The notes below the pieces were generated by a model. It ran no database searches and was not told the DNA's origin. It worked only from the letters and a program-made list of their open reading frames with translations. From assembly GCF_900166655.1 (NCBI RefSeq), contig NZ_FVZB01000007.1, forward strand, positions 1 to 64,000: a stretch of DNA of 64,000 nt. The letters are read 5' to 3'. This stretch comes from Halobacillus hunanensis. Lineage in GTDB: Bacteria > Bacillota > Bacilli > Bacillales > Halobacillaceae. Shown here in pieces: positions 46,125-50,429 of the stretch; the first letter of the stretch is position 1, and each line of letters opens with the position of its first letter. The position numbers were made by a program, and so were the translations under genes.

Positions 46125-46495
46125 TCATTTAAAGAAATTTGTAAAAAGTTCCATGATGCTCTAGTCTCAGGAGGATCGTTTATATTTTCTGTTGAACACC
46201 CGATTTTTACCTCCCGTGAGGAACAAGACTGGTATGTGGATGAACAAGGAAATCGTCTGCATTGGCCAGTGGATAACTACCGGCTGGAGGGAATACGTGA
46301 AACGAACTTCTTAGGTAAAGATGTCATAAAGACCATCGGACATTATCAACTTATTTAAATATCCTGATTGAAGCTGGTCTTAAAGTGAAAGCTGTTGAGG
46401 AGCCTATGCCTTCAGATGAGGTGGTACAGAATAATCCCATGAAAGATGAAAACCGAAGACCTATGTTCCTGATTATTTCAGCAGAAAAGGAATAG
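46125..46495 (+). pseudogene. Truncated, frameshifted SAM-dependent methyltransferase
   Basis: No intact gene, but two frames read as the C-terminal half of a class I methyltransferase. Frame one (46125-about 46340) gives FKEICKKFHDALVSGG then SFIFSVEHPIF and YVDEQGNRLHWPVDNYRLEG. After about 46337 the protein continues in the next frame as HRTLSTYLNILIEAGLKVKAVEE..PMFLIISAEKE with TAG at 46493. The change fits loss of one base. The 5' half with the SAM-binding motif is missing. The decay looks recent, as the remaining protein is well conserved in pattern. Confidence 0.75.
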
Positions 46496-46507
46496 TGGGA
46501 TCAAAAA

Positions 46508-46540
46508 GAAGCATGAGGCCGACAGCCCCATGCTTTTTAA
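46508..46540. terminator. Bidirectional terminator before rlmN
   Basis: AAGCATG/CATGCTT stem with a long GC-rich loop (GGCC..CAGCC) and A/T runs on both sides; on the minus strand it follows rlmN. Confidence 0.6.
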
Positions 46541-47622
46541 TTTGCCTGTAATTTTTTCTTTTTACGAGCTTTTTCCTTTTCGATCTGTTTACTGCGAAGC
46601 TGACCACATGCTGCATCAATGTCTGTTCCGTGCTCAGTGCGGACACCACATTTTATTCCACGATCCATTAAAGTCTGATAGAAGGTAAGAATCGCTTCTT
46701 TTTCACTTCGCTCGTACGGATTATCCGCGACCGGATTGTACGGAATTAAGTTAACGTACGATAAATGGCGCTTATCTTTTAGTAAAGCGGCTAACTGTTC
46801 TGCTTCCTTCTTATGATCATTCACATCTTTTAATAGAATATATTCAAAGGTAATACGACGGTTCGTTTTTTCTAAATAGTAATCAATAGCTGGCATTAGT
46901 TTCTCTAATGGATAGGCGCGATTGATCTTCATAATTTTCGTACGGAGTTCGTTGTTAGGGGCGTGGATGGATAGTGCCAAATTGATTTGGATTCCTTCAT
47001 CCGCAAACTCGTACATTTTCGGCGCGATTCCACTTGTAGATACGGTGATGTGACGTGCTCCAATTGACAAGCCTTTTTGGTCATTAACGACGCGCAAGAA
47101 GTCAATCAAGTTGTCATAGTTATCGAACGGCTCACCGATTCCCATCACGACAATGTGGCTGACACGTTCGTCCTGGCCTTGCTCATCTAGATGGTGCTGC
47201 ACTTGCATAATTTGTTCGACAATCTCACCACTTGTTAAGTCACGATTTTTACGCAGAATGCCACTTGCACAGAACGAACAGCCAATATTACAGCCGACCT
47301 GTGTGGTGACACAAACGGAAAGACCATAGTTAAACCGCATCAGCACCGTTTCGATCACGTTGCCGTCGTCTAATTTAAATAGGAATTTAACCGTTCCATC
47401 TTTTGATTCCTGTTTAATTTCTTCCGTTAGCGTTTCTATCGTAAAATGCTGATCAAGAAGGTCGATACAGGACTGATTCACATTTTTCATTTGCGTGAAA
47501 TCAGTGACACGTTTCTGGTAAAGCCAGTTCCAAACTTGCTTTGAGCGGAACTTCTTCTCACCGTGCTCGATCATCCACTCCGTCAGTTGGTCAAAGGTTA
47601 ATCCGTAAATGGATTGTTTCAT
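46537..47622 (-). CDS. rlmN: 23S rRNA (adenine-2503-C2)-methyltransferase RlmN
   Basis: 361 residues. This radical-SAM enzyme methylates C2 of A2503 in 23S rRNA and A37 of some tRNAs. The radical-SAM cysteines are in CNIGCSFC (111, 115, 118). The second catalytic cysteine lies near residue 339 in [11 protein letters not shown]. The N-terminal RNA-binding part ([16 protein letters not shown]) and the basic C-terminal tail ([11 protein letters not shown]) are typical. The ATG at 47622 follows GGAG. It is transcribed alone, convergent with the monooxygenase region. Confidence 0.95.
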
Positions 47623-47761
47623 ATATACGCTCCTCTATAAAAAAATACGCTATTCCTATAATAATGGATATACAGGCTGTAAACAACCAGTATGGGAAAG
47701 TCAGAATCTTATTTTAACTTCCAGTACAAACATTTTAGCAGCTGCGTCATTGGAATAGAAG

Positions 47762-47885
47762 AAGGTGGTCGGGGAAATAACTCGCTTTCCGTGGGCGTAC
47801 GGTGAGCTTCCTCAGGCTTCCGCCTTCCGGGATCTCACCCTGTACTATAATCCCACAGGAGTCTCGTCATTTCCCCGACCACCTT
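47762..47885. repeat. Hairpin element, copy 1 (17-bp perfect terminal inverted repeats)
   Basis: AAGGTGGTCGGGGAAAT (47762-47778) and its exact complement (47869-47885) flank a core with ACTCGCTTTCC near one end and GGAGTCTCG near the other. No open frame of note. It is related to copy 2 in inverse orientation. Confidence 0.8.
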
Positions 47886-48056
47886 ACCTAGTAAAAGAAA
47901 CGGAACGGGTACCTGTCAGTGTAGGAACACTACATAGCCATTAATTATGACAGCTTTTATAGGTCTACCTTCATGAATGAACAGTACCGTTAAATTTAAT
48001 CTCCGTTAATGGAAGGCCCGATGCTCGTAAATGGTTCCGTAGAGCTCATTATCGAA
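47886..48056. other. Spacer between the two hairpin elements
   Basis: No gene seen. It contains a small hairpin TGTAG/CTACA near 47920-47935. GGTTCCGTA (48033-48041) has its complement TACGGAACC at 48192-48200, forming an outer inverted repeat around copy 2. A short AT-rich tail continues from 48201 to the bmr promoter. Confidence 0.5.
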
Positions 48057-48176
48057 ATGGGGATGGGAAACTGCGAGACTCCTACGGGAAAGGAAAGGCT
48101 GGCGAGGCCCCGGAGGTCGGAGACCGAGGAGACTTGCCGTCTTCCCCGTGGAAAGCGAGTGGTTTTCCATCCCCAT
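48057..48176. repeat. Hairpin element, copy 2 (inverse orientation)
   Basis: ATGGGGATGGGAAAC (48057-48071) pairs with GTTTTCCATCCCCAT (48162-48176), with one G-T. On the minus strand its core reads ACTCGCTTTCC .. CTCCTCGGTCTCCGACCTCC .. TAGGAGTCTCG, clearly the same core as copy 1, but the arms are different in sequence. Confidence 0.8.
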
Positions 48177-48275
48177 CCTCATATTAATAAATACGGAACC
48201 TTTATCAATCAGGACAATTTCATAATGACGGAACAGTTAAAACAGTAGAAAGGAATTAATTTCCTTAATAATCTG

Positions 48276-48304
48276 TTGCATTAATTTTCCGAAAATTGTA
48301 TAAT
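48276..48304 (+). promoter_or_regulatory. SigA promoter of the bmr operon leader
   Basis: TTGCAT (48276-48281), 17 bases, perfect TATAAT (48299-48304), 32 bases before a short leader frame. Confidence 0.75.
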
Positions 48305-48335
48305 ATATAATCATTGAGAAAAGGAGGTCACGACC

Positions 48336-48395
48336 ATGAAAAAACGAATTGTACGATCCCAGTCCAATTTCATATGGTTCGTGGCCAGCCGGTAA
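48336..48395 (+). CDS. Leader peptide (BmrB-like), 19 aa
   Basis: Short frame with a strong ribosome site (AAAGGAGG, nine bases before ATG): MKKRIVRSQSNFIWFVASR then TAA. Its last codons (TTCGTGGCC, 48378-48386) can pair with GGCCACG (48430-48436), which can otherwise pair with CGTGGCC (48444-48450). A terminator follows at 48467. In B. subtilis the homologous exporter operon is preceded by bmrB, a leader frame whose translation controls read-through when ribosomes stall under antibiotics. The B. subtilis leader is longer (about 54 codons), so the likeness is in arrangement; sequence homology was not checked. Confidence 0.65.
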   Translation: MKKRIVRSQSNFIWFVASR

Positions 48396-48428
48396 ACCTA
48401 GTTTATTCCATGAGAATAGTTTCATAGC

Positions 48429-48495
48429 GGGCCACGTATATTTCGTGGCCTATTTATGTGTTAGGAAAGCATACGTCACGTACGTATGCTTTTTT
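48429..48495 (+). promoter_or_regulatory. Attenuator of the bmr operon (hairpin plus terminator)
   Basis: Hairpin GGCCACG/CGTGGCC (48430-48450), then a terminator AAGCATACGT/ACGTATGCTT with a six-T tail (48467-48495). The hairpin's left arm can pair alternatively with the end of the leader frame, the usual layout for translation-controlled attenuation. Confidence 0.65.
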
Positions 48496-48593
48496 GCGTT
48501 TTTAGGTGTCTGTCATAAAGGACAGATCTTCATTTTCTTGGTGGCAAGCGGCTGGGACCGCTTCACATAAATACATGATTACAGGAGGTTTTT

Positions 48594-48659
48594 ATGAAAT
48601 GGGTAACAAGTGGATGCACAAAGAATGGAACGAAGAGTGGAAAGAAAGCGGTTAGCTAG
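48594..48659 (+). CDS. Possible second short leader frame
   Basis: Between the attenuator and bmrC lies an AGGAGG followed at a good distance by ATG 48594, opening a 21-codon frame (MKWVTSGCTKNGTKSGKKAVS). A second ATG at 48599 in another frame opens MGNKWMHKEWNEEWKESG, a Trp/Glu-rich 18-residue peptide that looks more protein-like. One of the two may be translated and help to couple translation into bmrC. Weak evidence. Confidence 0.35.
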   Translation: MKWVTSGCTKNGTKSGKKAVS

Positions 48660-48683
48660 TCAACAGATGAAAGGATGATAGCG

Positions 48684-50429
48684 ATGTTTAGTGTGTTAGT
48701 GAAATTACGTTGGTTTTTTAAGCAATATTGGAAAAGATACACGTTTGCCATTATCGCCTTAATTATTGTTAGTGCAATTGATTTAATCCCGCCAAAATTG
48801 GTTGGGATGGCGATTGACGAAATACAGTTTAACACCTTAACGATGGAACATTTAATTAATGTGTTGCTTTTATATGGCGGATTGATTATTGCCAGTTACA
48901 CGATCTCTTATTTATGGGATTATACGTTATTCAGCGGGGCAGCCATTATGGAGCAAAGCATGCGTTCAAGACTTATGAACCAGTTTCTGAAAATGACTCC
49001 GACTTTTTTTCAACGCAATAAGGTTGGCGATTTGATGGCCCGGAGTACAAATGACCTTAAAGCCATTGAAATGACGGCTGGCTTTGGGATACTAACGTTG
49101 ATCGACTCGACGATTTTTATGATCTTAATTATTGCGATGATGGGGGTGACGATCAGCTTTAAGTTAACCTTAGCAGCTTTGATTCCGCTTCCGATTATGG
49201 CATTTGTGATGAATAAGTATGGCGGTGTGATTCATAAGCGGTTTATGGAAGCTCAGGAAGCCTTCGGCGATTTAAATAATTATGTGCTGGAGTCAGTGAG
49301 AGGAGTTCGAGTGGTTCGGGCTTTTGTCCAGGAGCGACAGGACCAGCATAGATTTCAGAATATAACTGAAGATGTCTATGGAAAAAATGTCAAAGTAGCC
49401 AAGGTGGATGCTTTGTTTGAACCAACTATAACGGTGCTCGTAGGAATCTCCTACACCATCGGTCTTGGGTATGGGGCCTCACTTGTCTTTCACAATGTGA
49501 TTACGCTCGGTGAGATGGTGTCCTTTAACGTATATTTAGGGATGTTAATTTGGCCGATGTTTGCGGTTGGTGAGCTGATCAATGTGATGCAGCGTGGGAA
49601 TGCCTCGTTGGATCGAGTGAATGAAACGCTGCAGTATAAGCCTGACGTTTTGTCACCTAGTCAGCCGAGAAGGCTCGATTATCCAGATACGATCGAGTTT
49701 AAAGGGGTAGATTTTCAATATCCAGGGACAGAAGTTAAAGGGTTAAGTCAATTGAATGTGTCAATCAAACGCGGGCAGACGATTGGAATTGTCGGGAAGA
49801 CGGGTGCTGGGAAAACCACCCTGTTTAGACAGCTGCTCCGTGAATATCCGGGGCTTCAAGGCTCGCTGCAAATTAACGGGATCGACATCAAAAACCTGGA
49901 CTTAGATACGACACGATCCTGGATTGGCTATGTCCCACAAGAGCAAATTTTGTTCTCTAAGACCATTCGCGAGAACATTCAGTTTGGTAAAGAAGGTGCG
50001 ACGGATGAGGAAATTTATCGAGTCATGCGGTTAGCCCACTTTCTAGAGGATATGAAAATTTTACCGAAAGGGCTCGACACGATGGTGGGAGAAAGCGGAG
50101 TTACCTTGTCTGGAGGACAAAAGCAACGGGTGGCGATAGCCCGGGCTTTCATTATGGACCCGGAAATTCTCATGCTTGATGATGCAATGTCAGCTGTAGA
50201 TGGAGAGACAGAGGCAGCCATTATCGAACATCTTCGTAAGGAACGAGAAGGGAAAACAACGCTGATTGCTGCCCATCGATTGTCTGCGGTGACTCACGCT
50301 GATCATATTCTCGTCCTTGAAGAGGGCCGAATTGCTGAGCAAGGTACACATCAGGAGTTGATGAAGCAGAAAGGCTGGTATCAGACACAATACGATCATC
50401 AGCAGCTCGATCGGGAGGTGAAGGAATGA
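48684..50429 (+). CDS. bmrC: Multidrug ABC exporter subunit BmrC (YheI-like)
   Basis: About 581 residues, matching BmrC (585) in length and N-terminal pattern (MFSVLVKLRWFFKQYWKRYTF). It has six membrane helices (about 15-300) followed by an ATPase domain with Walker A GIVGKTGAGKTTL (about 373), the Q-loop YVPQEQILFSKTIRENI, the ABC signature LSGGQKQRVAIARA and Walker B ILMLDDAMSAVDGE. An Asp follows the Walker B Asp, where a catalytic Glu is usual, so this is the degenerate site of a heterodimer. ATG 48684 fits the AAAGG site; ATG 48675 is also in frame. It overlaps bmrD by four bases. Confidence 0.9.
   Translation: MFSVLVKLRWFFKQYWKRYTFAIIALIIVSAIDLIPPKLVGMAIDEIQFNTLTMEHLINVLLLYGGLIIASYTISYLWDYTLFSGAAIMEQSMRSRLMNQFLKMTPTFFQRNKVGDLMARSTNDLKAIEMTAGFGILTLIDSTIFMILIIAMMGVTISFKLTLAALIPLPIMAFVMNKYGGVIHKRFMEAQEAFGDLNNYVLESVRGVRVVRAFVQERQDQHRFQNITEDVYGKNVKVAKVDALFEPTITVLVGISYTIGLGYGASLVFHNVITLGEMVSFNVYLGMLIWPMFAVGELINVMQRGNASLDRVNETLQYKPDVLSPSQPRRLDYPDTIEFKGVDFQYPGTEVKGLSQLNVSIKRGQTIGIVGKTGAGKTTLFRQLLREYPGLQGSLQINGIDIKNLDLDTTRSWIGYVPQEQILFSKTIRENIQFGKEGATDEEIYRVMRLAHFLEDMKILPKGLDTMVGESGVTLSGGQKQRVAIARAFIMDPEILMLDDAMSAVDGETEAAIIEHLRKEREGKTTLIAAHRLSAVTHADHILVLEEGRIAEQGTHQELMKQKGWYQTQYDHQQLDREVKE

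Follow-up and report, generated by a model that had tools for sequence, protein, structure and literature searches.

What is the origin of two hairpins that share a core, lie in opposite orientation, and have arms that change from one copy to the other while they keep pairing? The question was raised by positions 47762-48176 of a 64,000-nucleotide stretch of Halobacillus hunanensis DNA (the window, which covers positions 1 to 64,000 of contig NZ_FVZB01000007.1), for which the original prediction proposed two related ~120-nt elements with completely different, self-complementary arms and no transposase gene. Two such hairpins with a common core were indeed present at these places, on opposite strands. 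Hairpin A (arms and core, 47762-47885, + strand) has the arms AAGGTGGTCGGGGAAAT / ATTTCCCCGACCACCTT, paired in 17 of 17 columns, around a core, CTCGCTTTCC...GGAGTCTCG, that was located by pattern match at 47781-47866 on the + strand. Hairpin B (arms and core, 48057-48176, - strand) has its core, located in the same way, at 48074-48159 on the - strand, and its arms, ATGGGGATGGGAAAC / GTTTTCCATCCCCAT, form 14 Watson-Crick pairs and one G.T, of 15 columns. Fold z scores were -7.2 for A and -4.3 for B, and for neither hairpin was any of 200 shuffles equally stable. Self-complementarity within each copy was therefore as described. The arms do differ between the copies, but not completely, as GGGAAA beside the core is common to the arms of A and B. 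Direct reading also revealed outer repeats that had been overlooked: an inverted repeat around B, with GGTTCCGTA to its left (48033-48041) and TACGGAACC to its right (48192-48200), and AACGGAAC adjoining A (47899-47906), without a clear left-side partner. No transposase is encoded within 47732-48237, in agreement with the prediction; the sole open reading frame of at least 60 aa lying mostly inside this interval has 79 aa (48009-48248) and crosses hairpin B.

The exact two-part core was found in 10 copies in the 3.98-Mb genome to which the window belongs (reversed-pattern control, 0). Of 150 genomes sampled from the order, 61 contained the core, as did 36 of 83 genera, compared to none for the control, and a scan of genome contigs gave at least 120 stretches; the core is thus widespread in Bacillaceae and their relatives, in line with the original prediction. 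Copy number varied from 2 to 195 across 11 Halobacillus genomes.

We then asked whether A and B are two elements or one. A blastn comparison of 46401-49600 of the window with genome G005 gave homology solely over 46521-47731 and 48238-49600. The 506 bp in between (47732-48237), a mosaic of two inward-facing hairpins and a ~170-bp middle, find no homologous counterpart at the syntenic G005 site, which carries ~1.4 kb of other sequence in their place. This sequence includes a small operon (L178:1900-2600) of what we take to be a padR-like regulator and a DUF1048-like gene, which suggests that the spot is an insertion-prone intergenic place. A clean empty site for the window copy was not recovered in this comparison. 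At another locus, L009, the flanks are 0-47 nt apart in 7 congeners vs ~700 bp in the window genome, while a remnant left by a deletion is seen in G005. When composites located at separate places of the window genome were compared, they aligned with each other over ~440-470 bp, and also with their own reverse complement.

The order of the hairpins was examined among Halobacillus cores less than 1 kb apart. There were 17 distinct +/- pairs (19 raw, two pairs having been met from two loci), no -/+ pair, 3 ++ and 3 --. Among the places listed, genomes G003 and G004 had 17 and 12 +/- pairs respectively, and -/+ pairs were found in neither; in ~144 kb of G003 stretches, which were chosen around pairs and are not independent, 16 neighbours were +/- and 1 was -/+. 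Same-orientation neighbours 79-140 bp apart were seen at L032, L076, L124 and L129. Because of this inward-facing order, and because the 506-bp stretch as a whole is missing at the G005 site, we conclude that hairpins A and B are internal modules of a single unit, A on its left and B on its right, a composite nature that had escaped the original prediction. At L003 and L007, a 30-aa open frame, MPKxxRNLLDIALSYLFE..., lies between the hairpins; over its first 18 codons, one amino-acid replacement and four synonymous changes separate the two versions. It was discarded as a general component, no counterpart being recognised in the other composites compared.

Ends typical of transposons were found in relatives of the window copy. 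Their terminal repeats (TIRs) read GGCTCTGTTAAA-N6-TGTTG(AT) and are bordered by exact 8-bp target duplications. Among 120 terminus-like sites, a sample nearly all from Halobacillus and biased, as loci were fetched by core or terminus, 82 had a core 53-75 nt inward, with 37 of the left-end and 36 of the right-end type; nine of the 82 were scored at 8 nt, a chance match inside the terminus, and the sequence there does show the core. The Halobacillus composites, followed outward, thus have different left and right ends, and the TIRs lie beyond these. Exact 8-bp duplications were observed for 13 of 30 end pairs among all loci then collected, and were absent from 17. Once four nested alternatives (3, 4, 5 and 5 of 8 positions identical) were left out, 13 of 26 pairs had an exact duplication and 20 of 26 were identical at 7 or more of 8 positions, compared to 2 and 5 respectively of 650 mispaired flanks. 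L263 and L266 have one duplication in common and also yield the 2 exact matches of the control; they probably go back to a single insertion shared by two close species, so that 12 independent exact cases are left. Single-hairpin elements of 172-189 bp with exact duplications were found at L015, L044, L075, L081 and L105; the flanks of the hairpin elements L111 (7/8), L063 (6/8) and L102 (1/8) are not exact duplications. Hosts of the elements with duplicated flanks are Bacillus sp., Cytobacillus, Paenibacillus bovis, Alkalihalobacillus and Halobacillus; the label of the L105 host, Pseudomonas sp. ISL-84, is probably a mislabel. For the L105 element, 16 plasmid records gave a match, in no case over more than 80% of the element, and phage records gave none; the window hairpin matched neither plasmid nor phage records.

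Three Halobacillus elements with two hairpins have exact duplications: L091 (468 bp), L248 (848 bp) and L263 (927 bp). The first, from H. yeomjeoni, is a complete two-hairpin copy with TTATGTAA at either side. In all three, a single TIR pair and a single duplication surround both hairpins. This is difficult to reconcile with two independent single-hairpin insertions that landed side by side by chance, as is the set of +/- neighbours without any -/+. Single-hairpin elements are known from other genera and the six same-orientation neighbours exist, as such a coincidence would have it, and we regard it as very improbable nonetheless.

For the window copy itself, neither an 8-bp target duplication nor securely recognisable terminal repeats were found. 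Both TIRs were present within 2 mismatches in only 5 of 119 copies. The stretch 48178-48208, read on the - strand, resembles the outer part of the Halobacillus right-end consensus, with a local score of 17.5 against a null mean of 10.6 (2 of 300 shuffles scored as high), and also the left-end consensus (16.5; 7 of 300 shuffles as high). This similarity contains the outer repeat, and may be due to that repeat and not to a terminus. On the left side of the element, no end-consensus similarity was detected. In genome G059, the outer repeat is kept in most of the 17 copies, and no GGCTCTGTTAAA end was seen within 70-75 nt per side. Judging from sequence homology, the window copy would belong to the family through its paralogues and congeners, rather than through TIRs or a duplication of its own.

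Elements with the same ends and a transposase gene were present in genome G007, in two copies of 2.0-2.8 kb, each with TIRs as in the hairpin elements and with exact duplications (L283:1452-4286, the longer one, and L291:505-2504). Their 350-aa transposase matches NF033547 IS1595 (NCBIfam, E 6e-62) and PF12762 (Pfam, E 2.5e-12). The longer copy also carries a passenger, a YesK-like gene (PF14150), and a ~60-bp palindrome, TCTCGATACTGAGTCTTCC...GGAAGACTCAGTTTCGAGA, lies between passenger and transposase. At E up to 1e-20, a relative of the transposase was found in 48 of the 150 order genomes searched, further genera included; the window genome is not among these 48, and fragments are present in G002 and G010. 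Among 30 transposase loci from the 150 genomes, both ends were found in 15, with exact 8-bp duplications in 10 of those, and the hairpin in none of the 30. The core and the transposase were found together in 22 genomes, given 61 and 48 of 150 respectively, which is no significant co-occurrence (p = 0.38), a missing association that is compatible with the copies being relics yet lends this no support.

Termini of the GGAAGACTCAGTTTCGAGA type without hairpins were also met (L253-L257, L259-L262, L264, L269, L271, L287 and L288). They adjoin accessory genes, presumably VOC, NUDIX and acetyltransferase-like, and resemble mobile insertion cassettes. An integron-like gene-cassette reading of these sites was dropped once the IS1595 TIRs and duplications appeared. 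Three near-identical G004 loci proved to be larger duplications (1.7 to 3.0 kb of common sequence) and are no proof of cassette movement.

Since the hairpin elements have TIRs and 8-bp duplications, and since transposase-carrying elements have the same ends and duplications, they can be placed among the IS1595-family MITEs. We consider it likely that A and B, its two internal hairpin modules, belong to what is left (~506 bp) of a MITE-like, non-autonomous IS1595-family transposon. Points against this reading are the insecure ends of the window copy, the 17 end pairs with inexact duplications, the small number of copies that have both TIRs, the G059 copies, and the transposase loci, which contain no hairpin and are not significantly associated with the core. 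The original prediction had implied that no transposon was involved, and held that a standard duplication together with a known transposase would speak against it. The first of these views is not supported, and the combination named in the second is seen in the relatives, which show both the exact duplications and the IS1595-family transposase; for the window copy, the empty-site comparison was not clean.

Palindromes in inverse orientation are also a hallmark of REP/BIME-like elements, which are spread by a RAYT (TnpA-REP) transposase, and a Y1_Tnp match was obtained in 11 of 11 Halobacillus genomes, the one of G004 having two stops. However, the relaxed core was found in just 4 of 13 Y1_Tnp loci (L198-L210, most of them with the match in open frames of 185-218 aa), and in both RAYT-like loci examined, other short palindromes flank the gene. 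These are its own palindromes, GTACCAGGTAC and CCACCTCAGGTCATCC at L200 and L201, and they differ between species. To our knowledge, REPs have neither TIRs nor 8-bp duplications, unlike the hairpin elements. Spread by a RAYT enzyme is hence hardly credible.

To come to the second part of the question, pairing of the arms was measured in 280 distinct copies, collected with a relaxed core (at most 2 mismatches per half), a set that includes degraded or chance matches. At least 8 of 10 positions paired in the best window for 197 of them, compared to 39 when the right arm was taken from another copy, and 8 when it was shuffled. For exact-core copies the figures were 160 of 190, vs 43 with another copy's arm. 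The original prediction was exposed to finding copies with non-complementary arms; weak pairing was indeed observed in 83 of the 280 copies (53 with an inexact core, 18 with an arm of the TTGAT type), and in 30 of the 190 with an exact core, while the remainder pair. In the TTGAT-type arm (52 copies), a middle block of ~10 nt is repeated directly, not invertedly.

A fold with 41 pairs was derived from the 10 copies of the window genome. Pairing was found in 94.1% of its cells (83.0% in shuffles), both-side changes in 18 pairs and 50 cells (11.4 and 19.0 in shuffles), and the covariation score was 0.362, vs 0.161 for shuffled and at most 0.105 for slid versions, over which the structure has an advantage as it came from the same sequences as those tested. 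None of 500 shuffles reached the observed values for these measures; for further pair types (31), 38 of 500 did. From the 153 of 280 copies that had 9 or more of 13 arm columns paired, 39 arm-distinct representatives were chosen; among these, 62% of the differing columns were compensatory, compared to a mean of 6% and a maximum of 11% in 200 shuffles. Pairing is thus kept despite changing sequence, far above the shuffled, slid and swapped-arm controls. The inner helix also varies yet stays self-complementary, as in genome G103 the core takes another form, whose inner stem (CTTGGCAAAG...CTTTGCCAAG) is not the usual one.

Such arms could result from a copying process rather than from selection: replication template switching, by which one arm is made from the other, is described for hairpins in passages of PMC8794818, and would leave selection little or no part in the pairing. 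Two observations resemble its products. The divergent arms of L270 and L272 are identical over 20 of 20 columns, and the direct repeat block of the TTGAT-type arm is what inverting one arm segment is expected to give. Copying in blocks should cluster the compensatory changes; between sister copies, these fell into 18 single and 2 double runs, where random placement gives 18.4 and 1.4. Being mostly single columns, the changes do not separate selection from template switching. The core strands CTCGCTT and GTCTCG, moreover, are conserved and largely unpaired, and thus not homogenised by copying; their conservation suggests a bound protein or a fixed motif. On balance, we see template switching as a possible but doubtful main cause of the pairing.

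Covariation together with invariant unpaired strands is also what a functional RNA, or a single-stranded DNA structure, would display, the repeats being its copies and the GCGAGACTCC strand the most likely functional one. Mismatches in the arms were therefore counted by strand. On the CTCGC strand, all well-paired copies taken together had 218 A.C and 24 G.T mismatches, a lean to A.C that would read as G.U on the other strand. Of these, 173 A.C and 0 G.T come from the two columns adjoining the core, which may not be pairs, and this weakens the argument; beyond column 2, the numbers were 45 and 24, or 35 and 19 distinct events. Split by context, distinct events were 30 to 4 when unflanked (p = 6e-6), and 28 to 15 when flanked (p = 0.066). 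In a mixed core alignment, 247 G.U and 110 A.C cells were counted, 172 of the G.U cells coming from two near-invariant U.G columns, and the consensus fold was more stable on the strand opposite CTCGC (-15.4 vs -11.4 kcal/mol). Between sister copies, however, changes from pair to mismatch were balanced, with 23 A.C and 22 G.T.

Other signs of a transcript were sought at the level of gene context. With a simple ORF rule used to define genes, 98 of 113 copies lay between genes, 8 inside ORFs of at least 100 aa, and 7 had no flanking gene in the stretch available. Between tandem genes, 31 copies had the same orientation as the genes and 38 the opposite one, that is, no bias; divergent gene pairs were under-represented (9 of 98 copies vs 111 of 507 gaps, p = 0.003). 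An RNA terminator was rejected, with 0 terminator-like sites vs 0.8 in shuffles. Rfam gave no match around the hairpins (47600-48340) at E up to 1, and nothing besides rRNA and tRNA across the window. A strand bias by replichore was rejected as well: the first-listed places of G059 are all +, but its copies of one subfamily are 8 forward and 9 reverse, mixed along the contig. Two further points weigh against a functional RNA: the target duplications show mobility as DNA, and since the Halobacillus pairs are inverted, either strand carries one hairpin in antisense. We judge a functional RNA or single-stranded DNA structure to be improbable, and infer, with less assurance than for the family assignment, that the hairpin acts at the DNA level, perhaps with one preferred strand.

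For the IS1595-related MITE that we favour, a mechanism can be proposed. An IS1595-type transposase would have moved the hairpin elements in trans, and in the window genome this mobility would since have been lost, the window copy no longer being able to move. Extrusion of the ~120-nt hairpin inside an element of ~185 bp might bring the transposon ends together for synapsis, in which case any arm sequence would serve provided the arms pair, and pairing would be maintained by selection, by replication template switching, or by both. End-synapsis does not account for the conserved unpaired core strands, and a role in double-stranded DNA does not predict the lean of the arm mismatches to one strand. 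A broader proposal is that of a structured module found across the superfamily and selected for pairing, whose extrusion, as a cruciform or a single-strand hairpin, joins closely spaced ends or whose unpaired strands recruit a host protein, and which would be a structure-defined transposition enhancer of the transposase-less forms only; we hold this to be rather unlikely.

What was an unlabelled intergenic repeat becomes a recognisable kind of mobile element, whose ends can be tested and for which a transposase family is a candidate. Strong covariation need not imply an RNA, as pairs vary here inside mobile DNA and the signs of a functional strand are mixed, and such repeats are at risk of being misread as non-coding RNAs in covariation screens. 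Hairpins restricted to transposase-less forms would allow the role of structure in a miniature transposon to be put directly to the test.

Insertion sequences of the IS1595 family, and transporter transposons, were reportedly treated by Siguier et al. 2009. The relatives of the window copy have what is expected of an IS1595 MITE: TIRs in both single- and two-hairpin forms, an 8-bp duplication, and an autonomous partner. A section of PMC10045372 gives this duplication length for Merlin as well as for the IS1016 group of IS1595. Like that family, as far as it is set out there, the elements described here have TIRs and 8-bp duplications, and a passenger gene is found in L283 (YesK-like); unlike it, the hairpin elements are without a transposase gene and contain covarying internal hairpins, which none of the 30 transposase loci do. 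MITEs and mobile insertion cassettes such as MIC231 of B. cereus, in the portion of PMC3129680 concerned, likewise have IS ends without transposase and optional passenger genes, and are presumably moved in trans, but the ends of the hairpin elements are of the IS1595 type, not IS231, and a conserved structured module of ~120 nt is added. The bcr1 repeat is, by a partial account in PMC6542083, also short, foldable and mobile-looking in Bacillaceae; there, TTTAT repeats go with bcr elements and bcr1 is linked to the B. cereus group, whereas the hairpin elements have other 8-bp borders (L015, L081, L091, L105) and many host genera. Bhal-1 of B. halodurans (74 nt, 36 copies, type I, with a conserved stem-loop, in an extract of PMC2267715) may have the same core. 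REP/BIME palindromes differ in being 20-40 nt long and in flanking a RAYT gene, compared to a hairpin unit of ~120-190 nt here. No description of the present element was found among the results listed from open-access full texts. Its kind, that of IS-derived MITEs and cassettes, is already known; the covarying module, not seen in any of the transposase loci examined, makes it a variant of this kind.
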